Part shown: positions 10,130 to 19,482 of the stretch, in pieces
Numbering within the stretch: position 1 is the stretch's first letter
Layout of the letters: each line of letters starts with the position of its first letter
NCBI RefSeq assembly: GCF_005503555.1
Contig: NZ_SCNG01000002.1
Location: forward strand, 372,001 to 436,000
Reading direction: 5' to 3'
Source of the DNA: Rudaea sp. 3F27F6
GTDB taxonomy: Bacteria > Pseudomonadota > Gammaproteobacteria > Xanthomonadales > Rhodanobacteraceae
DNA: 64,000 nt
Made by a program: the position numbers and the translations under genes
Notes under the pieces: generated by a model
What the model was told of the DNA's origin: nothing
The model's input: only the letters and a program-made list of their open reading frames with translations
The model's database searches: none

Positions 10130-12889
10130 TCAGGAGCGGTCCGGCGACACCAGCTGCAACCGCGTCTTGATCCGCTTCGCGGCGTTCGGCATCAGCAACC
10201 GCTCGATCTCGGTCGCCTCGAGCGGCTGCGCGTAGAGGAATCCCTGCCCTTCCATACAACCCGCGCGCAGCAGGAAATCGTGCTGTGCTTCGGTCTCGAT
10301 ACCTTCGGCGATCGTGCGCAGGCCGAGACTCTTGCCGATCGCGAGCATCGCCTGGATGATCGCCGCGTCGTTCGCGTTGCTCGGCAGACCGGTGACGAAG
10401 AGGCGGTCGATCTTGAGCCAGGTGATCGCGGGCAGTTTGAGATAGACCAGTGAGGAATAGCCCGTGCCGAAATCGTCGATGGCGACGCTGACGCCGATTT
10501 CGTGCAGGCGGTGCATGATCCGGTCGGTATCCTCGCCGAGACGCAGAACCGAACTCTCGGTGATTTCGAGCACGATGCGCGACGGCGCCACGCCCGTTTC
10601 CGTCAGCGCGCGGCTCAGCGACTCGACGAAGGCCTGATGGCCGAACCAGTTGGCCGACACGTTCAAGGCCACGCGGATCGGCGGCATGCCCATGCGTTCC
10701 CATTCGACCAGTTTGTTCAGCACCGTATGCATGACCCACTGGTCGATCTGGCGCACCACGCCGAGATTCTCCGCGATCGGCACGAACTCGGACGGCGCGA
10801 TCATGCCGCGCAGCGGATGCTGCCAGCGCAGCAGCGCCTCGACCGCGACGATGCGCCCGCTGCGCAGTTCCACGCTCGGCTGGAAGTAGATGCGCAGTTC
10901 GTCGCGTGCGAGCGCTTGGCGCAGTTCCGCAGCCATTTGCAGGCGCGAGCGCGCCTTCGCGTGCATGATCGGTGTGTAGAAGCGCACACAGTTGCGTTCT
11001 TCGACCTTCGCCGCGTACATCGCCGCGTCCGCGTTGGCGATCATGGTCGGCGCGTCGACCGCATCGAGCGGATAACCGGCGATGCCGATGCTCGCGCTGA
11101 TCGCGATCTCGTGATCGTCGATGCGGTAGGGCTCGGACAACGCCGCGAGCAGACGATTGGCCAGACCCATCGCGTCTTCGCGCAGGCCGAGGCCGGTCAT
11201 CAGCACGGTGAATTCGTCGCCGCCGATGCGCCCGGCGACATCGAGCGGAGAAAGCTGCTTGGCGATGCGCGCCGCGGCCACCGCGAGCAGGCGGTCGCCG
11301 ACCGCGTGGCTGAAACTGTCGTTGACGATCTTGAACGCATCGAGGTCGATGAACAGCATCGCCACCGCCTCGCGTGCCTGCTCGGCTGCGGCAATCGCGC
11401 GCGTGCAGTGCTCCTCGAACTGCACGCGGTTGGCCAGGCCGGTCAGCGGATCGTGCCGCGCCAGGTATTCGAGCTGCAGCCGGTCGGACTTCGACGCGGT
11501 GATGTCGGCGATCACCGCGACGTAGCGCTGTACGCGCCCGTGCGCATCGCGGATCACGCTAACGCTGAGACGCTCGTCGTACATGCTGCCGTCACGACGC
11601 CGCGCGCGTACCTCGCCCAGCCAGGTGCCCGTCGCCGCGATCTGCACCCAGATCGACGGCGGCAGCAGGCCGCCGTGCGGCAGCACGCGCATATCGTCGA
11701 TGCGCCGCCCGGTAAGTTCCCCGGCGGTGAAGCCGGTCAGCGCGGTATGCGCGGAATTGACCGCGATCACGCGTCGGTTCGAGTCGGCAATGATCACGCC
11801 TTCGGCGACCGCGCCGAGCGCTTCGGCGGCAATGCGGCGCTCCTGTTCCAGCGCCACGCGTTCGGAAATATCGCGGATGATCGCTTGGCGCACGCGCTTT
11901 TCACCCCAGTCCGCCACGCTCCACTGAGTCTCGACAGGCCGCATCGAACCGTCCGCCGTACGCAGCTCGTCGGTGGCGCCGGCTTCGCGCGACTCCACGC
12001 CCTCGACCAGATCGGAATAGCGCCGACCGACGAGCGTCTCCGAGTCCTCTCCGACCCAGGTCGCCGCGGTGAGGTTCGCATCGAGAACGAGGCCGCTGTT
12101 CTCATCGACCATGACGATCGCGTCGGGCGCGCTGTCGAACAGAACGCGATAGCGCTCCTCCGTGCCGCGGATCTTGGCCACGGTGCGCCGCGCGGTACGC
12201 AGCCAGATCAGCGAGGCAATGCTCGCCACCGCGAACACGCCGCAGAACAGCAGACGCGCGATCCAGATGGTGCCGTCGGCGATCGTGCTCGAGAACAGCT
12301 CGGCGCGCGGCTGGATATACCCGTTGAGCACCGAAATGCGCCCGATCTCGCGCGCGAGACGCGCGTCGTTCCACGACGGCGAATGGCGGTCGCGGCGCAA
12401 TTCTGCGGCGATCGCACCGAGTTCGCCGATCGCCTCGTCGGTCGAACGCCAGGCCGCCAGCGCGCCGCTGACGAACGGCGCATTCGGCAGATAGCGAAAA
12501 ATGAAGATGACGACCGGTATCGCCTCGCGCATGGCGTTGTCGTGATGCAGCGCTTCCACGACCGCCGCGCGGTCGTAGTCCGGTTTGACCGACTCGTCGC
12601 GGGCGAAACGATCGTAGCCGAGCAAGGCGAAATTGCGGTCGAAGTTCGCCAGGGAATCGGCATCGCCGTGGACGGCGTAGGCCTGCAGATCGACGACGAT
12701 CTGCTTCTGCGCCTTCGACCAGATGCTCTCGCCGTTGAGAAACGCCGCAAGCGCAAGTTGCACTTGCAGCGCCCCCCACATCAGAACCAGCAGCAGACCG
12801 ACGAGCCCGACCAGCCCCCACGCCAACGGCATGAGTCTCTGGGTCAACGCTCGCTCGGATGCCACCCGTCTACCCTGCATGGCCGGCAT
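10130..12889 (-). CDS. Membrane PAS-PAS-GGDEF-EAL cyclic di-GMP protein
   Basis: The 919-residue protein has a transmembrane segment near 22-42, a periplasmic helical region of about 165 residues, a second membrane segment near 212-230, then two PAS domains (about 245-480), a GGDEF domain with an intact IGGDEF near 554, and an EAL domain from about 650. The EAL motif (VEALLRW), DDFGTGYSS and EGIETEAQ motifs are all intact, so phosphodiesterase activity is expected. Cyclase activity is possible, since the GGDEF motif is intact, but the inhibitory RxxD site five residues before it is replaced (SPLD). It starts 31 bases after the stop of the UndA-like gene on the same strand, so the two are probably co-transcribed. 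Cyclic di-GMP generally controls biofilm, motility and adhesion; the sensed signal is unknown. Confidence 0.93.
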   Translation of the reverse strand: MPAMQGRRVASERALTQRLMPLAWGLVGLVGLLLVLMWGALQVQLALAAFLNGESIWSKAQKQIVVDLQAYAVHGDADSLANFDRNFALLGYDRFARDESVKPDYDRAAVVEALHHDNAMREAIPVVIFIFRYLPNAPFVSGALAAWRSTDEAIGELGAIAAELRRDRHSPSWNDARLAREIGRISVLNGYIQPRAELFSSTIADGTIWIARLLFCGVFAVASIASLIWLRTARRTVAKIRGTEERYRVLFDSAPDAIVMVDENSGLVLDANLTAATWVGEDSETLVGRRYSDLVEGVESREAGATDELRTADGSMRPVETQWSVADWGEKRVRQAIIRDISERVALEQERRIAAEALGAVAEGVIIADSNRRVIAVNSAHTALTGFTAGELTGRRIDDMRVLPHGGLLPPSIWVQIAATGTWLGEVRARRRDGSMYDERLSVSVIRDAHGRVQRYVAVIADITASKSDRLQLEYLARHDPLTGLANRVQFEEHCTRAIAAAEQAREAVAMLFIDLDAFKIVNDSFSHAVGDRLLAVAAARIAKQLSPLDVAGRIGGDEFTVLMTGLGLREDAMGLANRLLAALSEPYRIDDHEIAISASIGIAGYPLDAVDAPTMIANADAAMYAAKVEERNCVRFYTPIMHAKARSRLQMAAELRQALARDELRIYFQPSVELRSGRIVAVEALLRWQHPLRGMIAPSEFVPIAENLGVVRQIDQWVMHTVLNKLVEWERMGMPPIRVALNVSANWFGHQAFVESLSRALTETGVAPSRIVLEITESSVLRLGEDTDRIMHRLHEIGVSVAIDDFGTGYSSLVYLKLPAITWLKIDRLFVTGLPSNANDAAIIQAMLAIGKSLGLRTIAEGIETEAQHDFLLRAGCMEGQGFLYAQPLEATEIERLLMPNAAKRIKTRLQLVSPDRS

Positions 12890-12920
12890 AATACGCCGAT
12901 ACTATGCAGAGAAATGTCTG

Positions 12921-13691
12921 CTATGCCGCAGCTTCGCTCGGAACGTCGACGACGAACCGCGAGGCCGCGATGCAGCGGTCGGCGAGGATGCGCATGCCCG
13001 CATAGCTCCTGCGGATGCACTCCCGCAGATGCCCTACCTGATGCGTCACCGGGTTGGTGCCGATCAGGGTGCAGACGATTTCCAGCGCTTCCCACGGATG
13101 CTCATCGTCGTAGGCCGCGTGCAGCTTGAGCCAGCGCAGGCTCGGCGTGTTCGGCATACTGCGCCGATAGGTTTCGCTGTCGTAGACGAGCTGCGACCAC
13201 TCTCCCGTCGCGCCTTCGACCGCGTAGTTCGTCGCGGCGATGCCGGCGGCCAGCGTGTCGTGCGTGCTGACCTCCTCGCACCAGTTGGCCAGCGCCATCG
13301 CATCGGCCGGCACCCAGTCGTTGAGCACCTTTTCGCGTGCCACGCCGGCACCCTCGGCCCAGTCGAGCCAATATTCCGCGTGGTTCTGCTCGACGCGGAT
13401 ATTGCGCACGAGCCAGCGCCGGGCCATGTTGTCCCCTTCGCTGCGCCCGTAGCGGGTCTTCATCAGGCTCGCCGCCATGTAGCCCGGGAAGCGCTCGATC
13501 ACCGGCCAGATGCCCACCATGAAGTTCGTGGTGGACTCAATGCTGAGCCGCGTCTCGCGCATCATCGCAAACAACTCGTGACGCACGACCTCGCGCTTGG
13601 CGCCTTCGCATGCGCCGACCATGTCCTGCGCCCACGACGGATAGCTGCTCAACCGATCGATCGGGCCGGAACGCTCAAAACGAATATTCAT
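12921..13691 (-). CDS. undA: UndA-like non-heme iron oxidase (1-alkene forming, putative)
   Basis: The 256-residue protein looks very similar to UndA of Pseudomonas, which converts medium-chain fatty acids such as laurate to terminal alkenes with O2. Shared stretches, from memory of UndA, include ARRWLVRNIRVEQNHAEYW, AATNYAVEGATGEWS and LKLHAAYDDEHPWEALEI. The metal-ligand pattern of this heme-oxygenase-like diiron fold is complete: E66, E101, H104, E159, H191, D195 and H198, with E-x2-H and H-x3-D-x2-H spacing. The start is the ATG at 13689-13691, with GAGGAG 7 bases upstream; the frame stays open 30 codons further but without family resemblance. A PAS-GGDEF-EAL gene follows after 31 bases. 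Related members of this fold (CADD, SznF, PqqC-like, TenA) act on other substrates, so the exact reaction is inferred. Confidence 0.82.
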   Translation of the reverse strand: MNIRFERSGPIDRLSSYPSWAQDMVGACEGAKREVVRHELFAMMRETRLSIESTTNFMVGIWPVIERFPGYMAASLMKTRYGRSEGDNMARRWLVRNIRVEQNHAEYWLDWAEGAGVAREKVLNDWVPADAMALANWCEEVSTHDTLAAGIAATNYAVEGATGEWSQLVYDSETYRRSMPNTPSLRWLKLHAAYDDEHPWEALEIVCTLIGTNPVTHQVGHLRECIRRSYAGMRILADRCIAASRFVVDVPSEAAA

Positions 13692-13826
13692 AAACTTCTC
13701 CTCGGAATCAGAAATGGACAGCCCGGCGGGCGACTCCGAATTTCTCACCGAGCAGGCGCCGGCAAATCGATGCCAACGCAAAAAATCCTCGTCGCTGACG
13801 GAGACGACCGGCAGCGCTACAAGGTG

Positions 13827-13855
13827 GATGCACCTAGCGATGCACTTGCATCATA
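13827..13855 (-). promoter_or_regulatory. Putative promoter and direct-repeat site upstream of undA
   Basis: Read on the minus strand, a -10-like TATGAT (13850-13855) is followed by two direct copies of GTGCATC (13839-13845 and 13827-13833) with a 12-base period, about one helical turn apart. They lie some 140 bases before the undA start and may be a regulator site. No good -35 is present, which would suit an activated promoter. Low certainty. Confidence 0.3.
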
Positions 13856-13914
13856 CGCTGGGCGGCATTCCGCGGTATTGCAAAAAGCAAAATGTATACG
13901 ACGTCGCAAAAACG

Positions 13915-15840
13915 CTACAGATCGCGCGCGACGCGGATGCCAACCTGCGCGTTGCGCGCGTCGGCGGCGAGACTGGTACGGAACGCCGAGCGCGCCTGAT
14001 CCGGCGCACTGCCCCAGGAAGCGCCGCGCACGACGCGCCGTTCGCAACCCGGATTGACCCAGGCGCGGCCGTCGGCGGGCGCGCGCAGATAGTTGTCGTG
14101 CCAGCAGTCCTCGACCCAGTCGGCGACGTTGCCGTCGATGTCGCGCAGGCCGAACGGGTTCGGCGGAAACTTGCCGATCGGCGCCGGTCCCCAGTAGCCG
14201 TCGCTGTACTTCGGAAACGCGTTCGTCCAACGCCGCTGCGTCGGCGACTTGTCGCCGTCGCCGGTCAGGTTCGCGATCTTCGACGTCGGATTTCCGTCGC
14301 CCCACCAGTAGCGCGTCGTCGTGCCGGCACGCAGCGCGTACTCGTACTCGGCCTCGCTCGGCAGGCGGTAGCGCTTGCCGGTGCGCGCCGACAGCCACTG
14401 CGCATAGGCCTTTGCGTCGTTCCAGGAAACGTGGATGACCGGCAGATTGTCGGCCGCGCCGGCGCCGCTGTAGTCGTTGCGCCAGGTGATGCCGCGGCGG
14501 TCGATGGTGCGTCCGGAGTCTTCGTCGTAGACCGTCGACGAGCCGAGCTTCTCCGCATCGGTCTGATACTTCGTGTCGTCGACGAAGGCGCGGAACTCGG
14601 CGACGCTGACTTCGTCCTGGCCGAGGGCGAAGCCGAGCGCGATCTTCACTTCGTGCTGCGGCTCCTCGGTGCTGCGATGGCCGGTTTCCTGCGCCGGCGA
14701 GCCCATCGTGAAACTGCCAATCGGCATGATCACGAGCTGCGGCGCTTTGCCGTTGCGGTCGACGAATGCGTCGGCAATCACCTGCCCCGGCTTGTAGCTC
14801 GCGTACAGCCGCGCATTGCGCAGGCGCTCGTTGAACGCATCGACGCCGCCGACGTCGGGACTGAGGCCGAGCGCGCGCTGGGCGAGCAACTGAGCGAGAT
14901 CGGCATTGCCCGCGTCGAGCGCGGAATTGGCCTGGGCCATGACCGCCGTCGCACGCTGCTCGCGGATGCCCTGGATCTGGCTGCGCGTGTCGAGCAACTG
15001 CTGCGAGCCCGGCCGGATCGAAGAGGCGCCGCGCAATGCCTCCTCGGCGCCCGCGTAGTCGTCCTGGGCGGAGGCGGCGAGCGCACGGTCGAGATAAGTG
15101 CGCTCGATCTGGGCGAGACCCTGGTCGGCGAGCTTGTTGTCCGCATCGATCTTCATGACCTGCCGGTACACGGCAAGCGCCTCGTTGCGATTCTTCGCTG
15201 CCTCGGCATCGTCCTTGGCCTCGCGATGCAAGGTCTCCGCGGCACGCGTCAACAGCGGCGTGGTCTGGCGCAATTTTTTCAGCCGCGACTGCAACTCATC
15301 GATATGCTCGTCGTCGAGCGCCTGGTCGCTGAGCACGGCGATCAGGCGCGCGGATTCGTCTTCATCGCCGCGATCGAGCGCCTCATCGGTGCGCTGCAGG
15401 ATCGCATCGCGCACTTTCTCGACGCCGGCCTTCGCCGCCGCGCTGCGCTTGTCGGTATCGAGCACCTGGCGATAGAAGGCCAGCGCGCCGTCCTTCGGCT
15501 CGAGCAGCCGGCCCTTGGCCAGCGCGTCGTCGGCCTTCTTCAACAGCGCGGCGATCGCTTTCGGCGGCGGCGGCGGTGGCGGCGCAAGGCTGACCGGCGG
15601 CCCCCACTGCACCGCTTCTTCGCGCGCGGACGGCGCGACCTTGGCGCTTTCGCCGCCTTTCTGCGCCTGCGCGGTCAAATTTGGCAGGCCGGCCTTGTAG
15701 TCGTCTACGCTCGGCGACAGCGGCGATCCCGACTGCGGCAGGCCCGGAAAGAAGCGGTAGAGCAGCGCGAACAACAGCAAGGCGATTCCCGCGGCACCGC
15801 CGAGCGTGGTCTGCTTATTGACGACGTCACTACCGGGCAT
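13915..15840 (-). CDS. Membrane-anchored FGE-sulfatase-fold protein with helical repeat region
   Basis: The 641-residue protein has a short cytoplasmic start, one transmembrane segment (about 13-31, GGAAGIALLLFALLYRFF), a proline-rich linker (APPPPPPP near 108-115), a long helical region of TPR-like character (about 115-340), and a C-terminal formylglycine-generating-enzyme-type domain from about 365 (MPIGSFTMGSP, RLPSEAEYEYALRAG, GNVADWVEDCW, VVRGASWGS). Enzymatic FGE needs a cysteine pair near the C terminus; here the last 40 residues have no cysteine, so it is not a sulfatase-activating enzyme and probably serves binding or another reaction, as in many FGE-fold proteins. No sulfatase gene is nearby. 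It is divergent from rnd. The 223-base gap to undA on the same strand argues against a single operon, though read-through is possible. Confidence 0.82.
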   Translation of the reverse strand: MPGSDVVNKQTTLGGAAGIALLLFALLYRFFPGLPQSGSPLSPSVDDYKAGLPNLTAQAQKGGESAKVAPSAREEAVQWGPPVSLAPPPPPPPKAIAALLKKADDALAKGRLLEPKDGALAFYRQVLDTDKRSAAAKAGVEKVRDAILQRTDEALDRGDEDESARLIAVLSDQALDDEHIDELQSRLKKLRQTTPLLTRAAETLHREAKDDAEAAKNRNEALAVYRQVMKIDADNKLADQGLAQIERTYLDRALAASAQDDYAGAEEALRGASSIRPGSQQLLDTRSQIQGIREQRATAVMAQANSALDAGNADLAQLLAQRALGLSPDVGGVDAFNERLRNARLYASYKPGQVIADAFVDRNGKAPQLVIMPIGSFTMGSPAQETGHRSTEEPQHEVKIALGFALGQDEVSVAEFRAFVDDTKYQTDAEKLGSSTVYDEDSGRTIDRRGITWRNDYSGAGAADNLPVIHVSWNDAKAYAQWLSARTGKRYRLPSEAEYEYALRAGTTTRYWWGDGNPTSKIANLTGDGDKSPTQRRWTNAFPKYSDGYWGPAPIGKFPPNPFGLRDIDGNVADWVEDCWHDNYLRAPADGRAWVNPGCERRVVRGASWGSAPDQARSAFRTSLAADARNAQVGIRVARDL

Positions 15841-17074: not shown

Positions 17075-17129
17075 AACGCTTTTTACCGCCCGGCGTACCG
17101 CGGCGAGTTTGATCAAAACTTCCATTGCG

Positions 17130-17163
17130 GCACGCGAAAACGGCATGTCCGTTTTCGCCGTGC
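17130..17163 (+). repeat. Long imperfect hairpin between rnd and the collagen-like gene
   Basis: GCACG-CGAAAACGG (17130-17143) pairs with CCGTTTTCG-C-CGTGC (17149-17163) around the loop CATGT: 14 pairs with one bulged base. It lacks a T run, so it is either a weak or Rho-assisted terminator of rnd or a leader structure of the gene at 17206. Confidence 0.5.
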
Positions 17164-17205
17164 AATGTCGTTGGCCTGCACAGATTTTCCAGACAGGAGA
17201 GATTT

Positions 17206-19482
17206 GTGCGCGTTTCGTGCCTTCGTAGTTCGATTGCAAAACCGACCCGCTCCGCTATCGCCGCGGCGCTTTTTCCCGCGGCCTTGCGCGTCTTCGTGCC
17301 GCTCGCCGCAGCCACGGCGGGATCTTCTGTCTTTGCCGCCGACGTCGTGGTCACGCCGAGCAGCGGCAGTGCCTTCGTCGTCAAGGATTCGAGCAATACC
17401 CTCGACCGCGTGCGCGTCAGCGAGAGCGGTCAAGTCTGGATTCCGGTGCTCGCCGGCGGCCCGCAGCAGAACACGCCGGTTTGCTCGGGAGCCGGCGGTG
17501 TGATCGGCCCGTGCGCGCCCGGTGCTATGGGCGTCGGTCCTACCGGCCCCGCCGGTCCCGCAGGCGCAACCGGCCCCGCTGGCCCGGCCGGCGCCACCGG
17601 TCCGACCGGCCCTGCCGGCCCGCCGGGCGGCGGCGGCTCCTTCACCCTGCCGTATTCCGCCGTGCAATCGGCGGCCGGCGCCTTGTTCTCCCTGACCAAC
17701 TCCGGCAGCGGAGACGCCATCGTCGGATCGAGCAGCGGCGCCTTCGGCGTGCGCGGCATCGCTGCGCTGGCGAATACGGCCGGCGTGATCGGGCGCAATA
17801 CCGGGCCCGGCTACGGCGTGCAGGGCCTCGTCGACACCGACACGAGCGGCAACGGCATCGCCGTATTCGGCCAGGTCGGCGCGGCTTCGAGCACCGGGCG
17901 CGCGGGACGCTTCGAAAACATCAATGCCTCCAACACGTCGAATACTTTGGAGGTCGTGACCAACGGGCCCGGCGTCATCGCCGATCACACCCAGGGCAAC
18001 GCCGGTAATTTCTTCGTCAACAATACCAATGGTGTCGGTGCGGGCGTACGCGGAGAGGTCAACAGCATCTTCGGCAACAACGGCACGGCCGGCGTCTACG
18101 GCGTCGCTTCCGGCACCGGCGGTTACGGCGGCTACTTCGAGCACAGCAATGCATCGGGTTTCGGACTCGCGCTCGAAGTGCTGCAAGCCGGTCTCGGCAT
18201 GGCAGCACGCTTCGAGACCGTGCTGCCCACGAATGCCCAGGCCACGATCTACGCGGTGACCGCCGGCCTCGGCAGCGTGGCGCAACTGACCAATACGAAC
18301 AACGCAAACACCGCCAATACGCTGCAAGTCACCACGAACGGCCCCGGCGTTATCGCCGACCACACCCAGGGCAATGCGGGCAATTTCTTCGTCAACAACA
18401 CCAACGGGGTCGGTGCCGGCGTGCGCGGCGAGGTCAACAGCATTTTCGGCAACAACGGCACGGCCGGCGTCTACGGTACCGCGTCCGGCACCGGCGGCTA
18501 CGGCGGCTATTTCGAGCACAGCAATGCATCGGGTTTCGGACTCGCGCTGTTCACCACCAACGCAGGCCTCGGCGTGACAGCCCATTTCGAGACCACCGCC
18601 ACCGCCAACGCGCAGTCCACCGTCGAGATCGCCCAGGCCGGCACGGGAACCGGTTTGAACGTCTACGCCACCAACAATGCCAATACCTCGAATATCGTCA
18701 ACGTGGTCACCAGCGGGCCGGGCGTCATCGCCGACCACAGCCAGGGCAATGCCGGCAATTTCTTCGTCAACAACACCACCAGCGTGGGCGCCGGCGTGCG
18801 CGGCGAAGTCAACACGATCTTCGGCAACAACGGCGCCGCCGGCGTGTACGGAGTCGCTTCGGGCACCGGCGGCTACGCCGGCTATTTCGAGCACACCGAC
18901 AAGACCGGCTTCGGCATCACCTTGCAGGCCATCAGCAACGATCTGGGCACCGTCATGGTCGTGGATCACGAAGGCACCTCGGGCGATTTGGCCATCTTCC
19001 AGACCGGCGGTTTCAACAAGGCGCGCATCGACCGCACCGGCCGCGGTTTCTTCAACGGCGGCACACAGACCGGAGGCGCCGACCTCGCCGAGTTCATTCC
19101 CGTCGAAGGCACCGAGCCGCAGCCCGGCGACGTCGTCGAAATCGACCCGGACCACTCCAATAGTTTCCGTCTTTCCAGCGCAGCGCATTCGGCGCTCGTC
19201 GCCGGCGTGATCTCGACCGACCCGGGCGTGACCATGAATGCGAAGACCGGCGCCGTTGCCGCGGGCCACGGCCCGGCGCTCGCACTCGCAGGGCGCGTGC
19301 CGGTCAAGGTGACCAATGCCAACGGCGCCATCCATATCGGCGACCTGCTCGTCGCTTCGTCGACACCCGGACACGCCATGCGCGGCGGCGATTTCGAGCG
19401 CACCGGCGCGGTGATCGGCAAGGCGCTGGAGAACTTCGACGCCGCCGACGGCAGCATCCAGATGCTGGTCTGGGCACACTGA
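17206..19482 (+). CDS. Secreted repeat protein with short collagen-like segment
   Basis: The GTG at 17206 was chosen because AGGAGA lies 6 bases upstream and a signal peptide follows (hydrophobic stretch ending VFAADVV near residue 46). The protein has 758 residues. After about 55 residues comes a run of some ten Gly-X-X triplets ([16 protein letters not shown]...), then a Gly/Asn/Thr-rich region with three copies of a 125-residue repeat carrying GPGVIADHTQGNAGNFFVNN and GNNGTAGVYG motifs, probably a beta-helical shaft. The C-terminal about 140 residues (from GGADLAEFIPVEG) resemble the end domains of phage tail fibre-like and other trimeric fibre proteins, sometimes annotated with G2-type autoproteolysis; this is a loose resemblance. 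It is likely an extracellular fibre. The next gene starts 8 bases later, so the two are co-transcribed. Confidence 0.8.
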   Translation: MRVSCLRSSIAKPTRSAIAAALFPAALRVFVPLAAATAGSSVFAADVVVTPSSGSAFVVKDSSNTLDRVRVSESGQVWIPVLAGGPQQNTPVCSGAGGVIGPCAPGAMGVGPTGPAGPAGATGPAGPAGATGPTGPAGPPGGGGSFTLPYSAVQSAAGALFSLTNSGSGDAIVGSSSGAFGVRGIAALANTAGVIGRNTGPGYGVQGLVDTDTSGNGIAVFGQVGAASSTGRAGRFENINASNTSNTLEVVTNGPGVIADHTQGNAGNFFVNNTNGVGAGVRGEVNSIFGNNGTAGVYGVASGTGGYGGYFEHSNASGFGLALEVLQAGLGMAARFETVLPTNAQATIYAVTAGLGSVAQLTNTNNANTANTLQVTTNGPGVIADHTQGNAGNFFVNNTNGVGAGVRGEVNSIFGNNGTAGVYGTASGTGGYGGYFEHSNASGFGLALFTTNAGLGVTAHFETTATANAQSTVEIAQAGTGTGLNVYATNNANTSNIVNVVTSGPGVIADHSQGNAGNFFVNNTTSVGAGVRGEVNTIFGNNGAAGVYGVASGTGGYAGYFEHTDKTGFGITLQAISNDLGTVMVVDHEGTSGDLAIFQTGGFNKARIDRTGRGFFNGGTQTGGADLAEFIPVEGTEPQPGDVVEIDPDHSNSFRLSSAAHSALVAGVISTDPGVTMNAKTGAVAAGHGPALALAGRVPVKVTNANGAIHIGDLLVASSTPGHAMRGGDFERTGAVIGKALENFDAADGSIQMLVWAH
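17930..18940 (+). repeat. Three tandem 375-bp coding repeats
   Basis: The same coding segment recurs with anchors at 17971, 18346 and 18721, exactly 375 bases (125 codons) apart. The first 60 codons of each copy are nearly identical in protein; the remainder diverges. Synonymous changes between copies show the duplication is not very recent. Confidence 0.9.

Follow-up and report, generated by a model that had tools for sequence, protein, structure and literature searches.

A likely Rhodanobacteraceae ortholog of the alkene-forming oxidase UndA, with predicted iso-branched products, beside a c-di-GMP signaling gene

UndA is known from the Pseudomonas structures 4wwj, 6p5q and 3oql, and a review describes it, in its available text, as a 3H/3C enzyme with six metal ligands, noting that heme-oxygenase-like diiron (HDO) enzymes can share almost all of this ligand set and still catalyze different chemistry (PMC13108848). 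The enzyme accepts C10–C14 acids (PMC12344977), and the title of the entry 4wx0 states that it was crystallized with a 3-hydroxy acid. 1-Undecene has been suggested as a Pseudomonas-specific volatile (PMC8246062). Within Pseudomonas, undA is said always to occur with rbdA, a statement attributed to Rui 2014 (PMC10614000); UndA homologs in Acinetobacter are attributed to the same work in a report where Acinetobacter baylyi carrying an empty plasmid gave traces of 1-undecene, which in the authors' view a homolog could explain (PMC6410514). The undA–rbdA pairing of Pseudomonas is therefore already in print, and its spread to Rhodanobacteraceae was not found in the literature searched. More generally, in the text available to us, the literature on UndA, undecene, branched alkenes and rbdA yielded no link between UndA and Rhodanobacteraceae, and a search for undecene together with rhodanobacter gave no match. 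New here are a conserved partner gene with reversed order and a swapped core, and the matching of a reported branched alkene to a gene.

We analyzed a 64,000-nucleotide stretch of DNA from Rudaea sp. 3F27F6 (the window), in which an undA open reading frame of 256 codons plus the stop codon occupies positions 12921–13691 on the minus strand. A preliminary description, made from the letters only, had proposed a UndA-like HDO enzyme in a Lysobacterales-type genome, and both parts held: the genome is placed in Rhodanobacteraceae, and the nearest solved sequences and the seven best fold matches of the protein are all UndA. Searching the PDB with phmmer returned 3oql (E 1.4e-78), 4wwj (5.3e-76) and 6p5q (9e-76), all three of them UndA, and the next match was CT610/CADD at E 0.09; at the level of sequence, the matches to UndA are far beyond chance. 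The stretch AATNYAVEGATGEWS, which had been pointed out as shared with UndA, is indeed present in the protein. Over aligned columns, the protein is 47.7% identical to 3oql (241 columns) and 46.7% to 4wwj (244 columns), which just misses the figure of more than about 50% that the preliminary description had set itself, a working threshold rather than a biological definition; the UndA of one Pseudomonas genome (L121) is 50% identical. Relatives of UndA carry the label 'TenA family transcriptional regulator' in public records.

The preliminary description had also listed seven metal ligands in register with UndA. Six of these, E101, H104, E159, H191, D195 and H198, align with their counterparts in 4wwj and 3oql and are kept in every row that reaches the column in an alignment of 120 rows; owing to gaps, this means 118 rows for H198 and 119 for each of the others. 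The seventh, E66, is conserved in 116 of the 120 rows, being alanine in an Acinetobacter protein (L119), and we did not count it as a ligand because the 3H/3C set described for UndA has six members. The structure prediction that had been proposed as a check pointed to UndA first: an AlphaFold2 model built from 36 sequences had a mean pLDDT of 91.5, and UndA chains filled Foldseek ranks 1–7 (TMq 0.89–0.93). The window protein thus resembles Pseudomonas UndA in length, predicted fold, six diiron ligands and the NYAxEGATGEWS core, but it is only 47–48% identical to it and falls in a separate clade. It shares the fold and, according to the review (PMC13108848), the ligand pattern with CADD and BesC; these HDO enzymes differ from it in having other chemistry, 15–18% identity and a lower TM.

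UndA extends beyond Pseudomonas, as had been anticipated. In a Rhodanobacteraceae family sample, the gene was present in 131 of 197 genomes and in 20 of 26 genera. An order-level sample of 60 genomes contained 19 with UndA: our own, 2 of the 15 further members of the genus and 16 of the 20 further members of the family. None of its 24 genomes from other families of the order had it. The class sample gave 5 of 369 genomes (our own, one at 61% and three with weaker or incomplete matches), and the phylum sample gave 12 of 398: our own, one more of the family, eight of a single family at 48–52%, one at 43% and one at 24%. The family of the eight appears, from its sequences, to be Pseudomonadaceae. 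UndA also occurs in plasmid records of Caballeronia, Burkholderia ambifaria and Pseudomonas aeruginosa (a megaplasmid), together with an Acinetobacter type that matches less well and, in Methylibium, a partial match.

In a tree of 48 rows, 29 of them Rhodanobacteraceae selected from the available rows, 45 UndA rows were split from three distant rows, the Acinetobacter type and two others, with support of 100/100. Rhodanobacteraceae (99/100), Pseudomonas (86/75) and Burkholderiaceae (95/88) each formed a clade, and the Rhodanobacteraceae sub-clade lay outside Pseudomonas UndA. Because the gene has its own clade in this family and is carried by 131 of the 197 genomes, we ruled out recent transfer from Pseudomonas; undA looks native to Rhodanobacteraceae. 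The UndA of Burkholderiaceae (Caballeronia and the B. ambifaria plasmid) is 45–48% identical to the window protein and that of the Acinetobacter-type clade 31–36%, the latter with other sensors alongside; both share the six ligands.

Several single records deserve mention. One UndA assigned to another family (L101, genome G317) is nested among Rhodanobacteraceae on a 6.6 kb contig, reflecting either transfer or a binning error. The Rhodanobacteraceae genome G027 has two diverged undA genes (57% and 61% identical to that of the window), each with its own sensor GGDEF–EAL gene downstream, and G871 likewise has two undA genes. Two records named Acinetobacter phage (CAKLQH020000018.1 and CAKLQF020000010.1) contain an Acinetobacter UndA-type gene, which is probably host DNA.

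Downstream of undA in the window, at 10130–12889 on the same strand, lies a gene for a 919-residue protein with an N-terminal helical sensor region, two PAS domains, GGDEF and EAL. The sensor region (residues 1–245; 12155–12889, minus strand) is of the RbdA type, bears the motif ESIWSK and forms two long helices in the predicted model, with putative membrane spans; the GGDEF, EAL and DDFG motifs are intact. The two genes are separated by 31 bases (12890–12920, minus strand). Since we found no terminator-like site in this gap, they are likely to be co-transcribed. The region upstream of undA (13692–13914, minus strand) has GAGGAG just before the ATG, which resembles a ribosome-binding site by eye, and a terminator-like hairpin with a T-rich tail at 13808–13791, between undA and the preceding SUMF1-type gene; no sigma-70-like promoter site was found in it.

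The pairing is conserved across the family. At all 80 of the loci L002–L081, the best match to the partner starts 25 to 246 bases past the UndA match on the same strand. In the family sample of 197 genomes, the sensor part lies downstream on the same strand at 134 of 134 UndA places (one UndA in a draft genome counting as two), with 31–576 bases between match ends. The genome of the window has 12 GGDEF matches in 5.7 Mb, so the neighbor is unlikely to be there by accident, and a count of 134 out of 134 does not arise by chance, although the genomes are related. L103 has an incomplete UndA at the edge of a contig, and the sequence stretch examined there contained no partner. The wider surroundings carried little information: the flanks of L002–L081 fell into 11 upstream groups, from 75 loci, and 10 downstream groups, from 72 loci, which is uninformative because most loci share one context.

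Directly upstream of undA, 13915–15840 (minus strand) encodes a protein of 641 residues that contains a sulfatase-modifying-factor (FGE-type) domain and matches TPR weakly. Among the loci scanned, this SUMF1-type gene precedes undA only in our own locus, L002, L003, L082 and L083. FadD, SUMF1-type and RNase D neighbors were considered as functional partners and found unsupported, as they recur only in our own locus, L002 and L003 (SUMF1 also in L082 and L083), many of the scanned loci being too short to show all three.

In Pseudomonas and Burkholderiaceae the neighborhood likewise has a GGDEF–EAL gene carrying an ESxWSK sensor, but in reversed order, undA coming first in Rhodanobacteraceae. 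Nine Pseudomonas loci (L116 and L121–L128) and two from Burkholderiaceae (L117 and L118) have that gene upstream of undA on the same strand, with gaps of 13–76 bases. The partner at L116 matches PA0861/5xgb almost letter for letter over all 568 residues, and PA0861 (5xgb) is RbdA itself. L116 is on the P. aeruginosa plasmid p2014S05-249-1, a megaplasmid typed as conjugative, with an rbdA–undA–hppD segment. L124–L128 have a second, convergent GGDEF gene after undA, so that c-di-GMP genes lie on both sides. At L120, whose record has the partner fragmented and gave no sensor match, a piece of a GGDEF–EAL gene precedes UndA. One of the two UndA copies of Caballeronia SBC1 adjoins an RbdA-like gene; by our reading of the open reading frames, the undA paralog on a Caballeronia sp. 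SBC1 plasmid (L115) instead stands beside an apparent hybrid sensor kinase and a response regulator, with no GGDEF–EAL gene. GGDEF genes also adjoin the UndA-like gene in all three rows of the distant clade, upstream with a gap of 22 (L132), downstream with a gap of 112 (L129) or as a divergent diguanylate cyclase (L119). Unlike L116, which has both, these three have neither a sensor-profile match nor ESxWSK. Overall, a GGDEF-type gene (a fragment at L120) adjoins all but one of the Burkholderiaceae and Acinetobacter copies examined.

We then compared the sensor and the enzymatic core of the partner separately. Its N-terminus aligns with RbdA at 24% identity over 257 residues (E 1e-16, a single comparison). 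ESxWSK is found in 83 of 83 Rhodanobacteraceae rows, some of them twice from the same genome, and in 11 of 11 Pseudomonas and Burkholderiaceae rows. The sensor profile gave one match per genome in four Pseudomonas genomes, at undA, and a search of the sensor fold against the PDB gave no match better than E 0.098. RbdA and the partner thus share a homologous N-terminal sensor, PAS, GGDEF, EAL and a position adjoining undA. They differ in that the partner has one more PAS, the gene order is reversed and the Rhodanobacteraceae core is not a sister of that of RbdA: a clade of 13 Rhodanobacteraceae and six RbdA cores against 25 others was rejected with a p-AU of 1.9e-34. The partner is therefore not simply RbdA as far as the core is concerned, with long branches in play. 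A quick tree likewise rejected the grouping of all 31 cores that bear the sensor to the exclusion of 23 others (p-AU 1.2e-5). Among solved structures, the closest to the core of the partner are 5m3c (MucR, listed as a diguanylate cyclase; 401 bits) and the 'Motility regulator' 4rnh (341 bits), compared with 205 bits for 5xgb. The motifs differ as well: EAL is kept in 82 and DDFG in 83 of 83 Rhodanobacteraceae rows, whereas EIL or ELL stands in place of EAL in the 11 Pseudomonas and Burkholderiaceae rows, nine of which have DDFC.

The sensor is not confined to UndA-bearing genomes. It occurs in 46 of 396 phylum-sample genomes, a survey compared with the UndA sample of 398 and in which matches per genome are lower bounds; these comprise every one of the 10 genomes whose UndA is at least 48% identical, plus 36 more, which ruled out the idea of a sensor found only with UndA. 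Within Rhodanobacteraceae, UndA is missing from 16 of 147 sensor-bearing genomes, some of whose sensor matches are weak. A sensor tree, for which 16 UndA-less rows were chosen from outside the Rhodanobacteraceae group, separated the two UndA-linked groups by a split with support of 99/97 and gave each of them relatives that lack UndA; no UndA was found in the stretches around those UndA-less rows. Either the pair is old, with frequent losses and a change of order and core, or UndA and the sensor family came together on two occasions.

A volatile of this family bears on the product. In one study, 10-methyl-1-undecene, identified by comparison with the NIST20 library and with no standard mentioned in the available text, was specifically emitted by Dyella yeojuensis and suggested to be a nematode attractant or egg-laying trigger; the same text does not say that Dyella japonica emits it and does not mention UndA (PMC9330711). 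Dyella yeojuensis is Luteibacter yeojuensis in NCBI naming, and both the partner and an undA that keeps every ligand are present in the genome of its strain SU11 (L026), which links gene and emitter at the species level. Removal of CO2 from iso-C13:0 (11-methyldodecanoic acid) with formation of a terminal double bond would give exactly 10-methyl-1-undecene. Luteibacter fatty acids are mostly iso-branched; Table 2 of another report gives iso-C11:0 (3.8%), iso-C11:0 3-OH (4.2%) and iso-C13:0 3-OH (2.4%) for L. yeojuensis, in which iso-C13:0 itself was not detected or not reported, and has no C12:0 row (PMC9965599).

These data bear on what the enzyme makes. It could be the same enzyme acting on straight-chain laurate to give 1-undecene as in Pseudomonas, with branched acids as poor substrates. 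The UndA clade has 37 invariant positions and only 12 that cleanly distinguish Rhodanobacteraceae from Pseudomonas, and the acceptance of C10–C14 acids (PMC12344977) would accommodate laurate. We nevertheless think this unlikely, as the Luteibacter table offers iso-C11 and the 3-hydroxy form of iso-C13 rather than C12:0 (PMC9965599) and the alkene reported from L. yeojuensis is iso-branched (PMC9330711). Given the predominance of iso-branched fatty acids in Luteibacter and the reported emission of 10-methyl-1-undecene by a gene-bearing species, 1-undecene from laurate, the product named in the preliminary description, is probably not the main one here.

A departure in chemistry rather than in substrate seems still less probable. 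Nearly the same ligand set serves different reactions among HDO enzymes (PMC13108848) and identity to solved UndA is below 50%, so the likeness might be one of shared scaffold only, with another oxidative cleavage or a desaturation acting on another acid or lipid; against this, sequence and fold are much nearer to UndA than to CADD or BesC, the pairing with an RbdA-type sensor protein is conserved as in Pseudomonas, and the L. yeojuensis product is an iso-alkene (PMC9330711). That TenA or PqqC might prove the nearer homolog had been raised at the outset, and a TenA, PqqC or CADD-type protein is now hardly credible. Matches to Pfam TENA_THI-4 and NCBIfam CADD do exist, but at 14.4 versus 22 and 41.9 versus 200 both fall under their curated cut-offs, whereas Pfam Haem_oxygenas_2 is passed (46.8 versus 28.9). 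Among the best 50 Foldseek matches, TenA, CADD, BesC, PqqC and their kin reached a TMq of 0.58–0.75 (PqqC 0.67–0.75, at 12–13% identity), below every UndA chain. We therefore ruled out membership of these groups.

Taken together, the evidence makes it likely that the window gene is the Rhodanobacteraceae ortholog of UndA, making iso-branched 1-alkenes and tied to c-di-GMP signaling. Its diiron site would bind a free medium-chain fatty acid through the carboxylate, activate O2 and release CO2 and a terminal alkene one carbon shorter. In this family the medium-chain acids carry iso branches, being the iso-C11 and iso-C13 acids and 3-hydroxy derivatives listed for Luteibacter, so the likely natural substrates would differ from those in Pseudomonas, and the products are probably iso-branched 1-alkenes, 10-methyl-1-undecene from iso-C13:0 and 8-methyl-1-nonene from iso-C11:0, and not mainly 1-undecene. 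Other UndA-bearing Rhodanobacteraceae would probably emit branched alkenes too. From the probable co-transcription of undA with the membrane GGDEF–EAL gene bearing the RbdA-type sensor, it would follow that alkene output and c-di-GMP-controlled biofilm behavior are linked, any direction assigned to that link being conjectural.

If the clade is active, a second family, in which roughly two of every three sampled genomes (131/197) carry the gene, would also produce UndA-type terminal alkenes, here in branched form, and there would be a candidate gene for the 10-methyl-1-undecene of L. yeojuensis. UndA is paired repeatedly with c-di-GMP enzymes, with order and output core swapped, and this opens two questions to direct test: why alkene synthesis goes hand in hand with c-di-GMP control, and whether the alkene is what the sensor detects. 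On a more speculative and rather doubtful reading, UndA and its neighbor would be a synthase–receptor pair for a volatile alkene signal, in which the ESxWSK sensor reads the alkene or its fatty-acid precursor and sets c-di-GMP. UndA would then have become attached to members of the sensor family on two or more occasions, lying upstream of the sensor gene in Rhodanobacteraceae and downstream of it in Pseudomonas and Burkholderiaceae, the two c-di-GMP cores being unrelated; iso-alkenes would be the Rhodanobacteraceae dialect, and sensors in UndA-less genomes would be listeners.

Elsewhere in the window, a 785-residue open reading frame at 17125–19482 on the plus strand has a collagen-like stretch of Gly-X-Y units; after it come long repeats, in which GPGVIADHTQGNAGNFFVNN occurs, and a C-terminal part that includes PVEGTEPQPGDVVEIDP.
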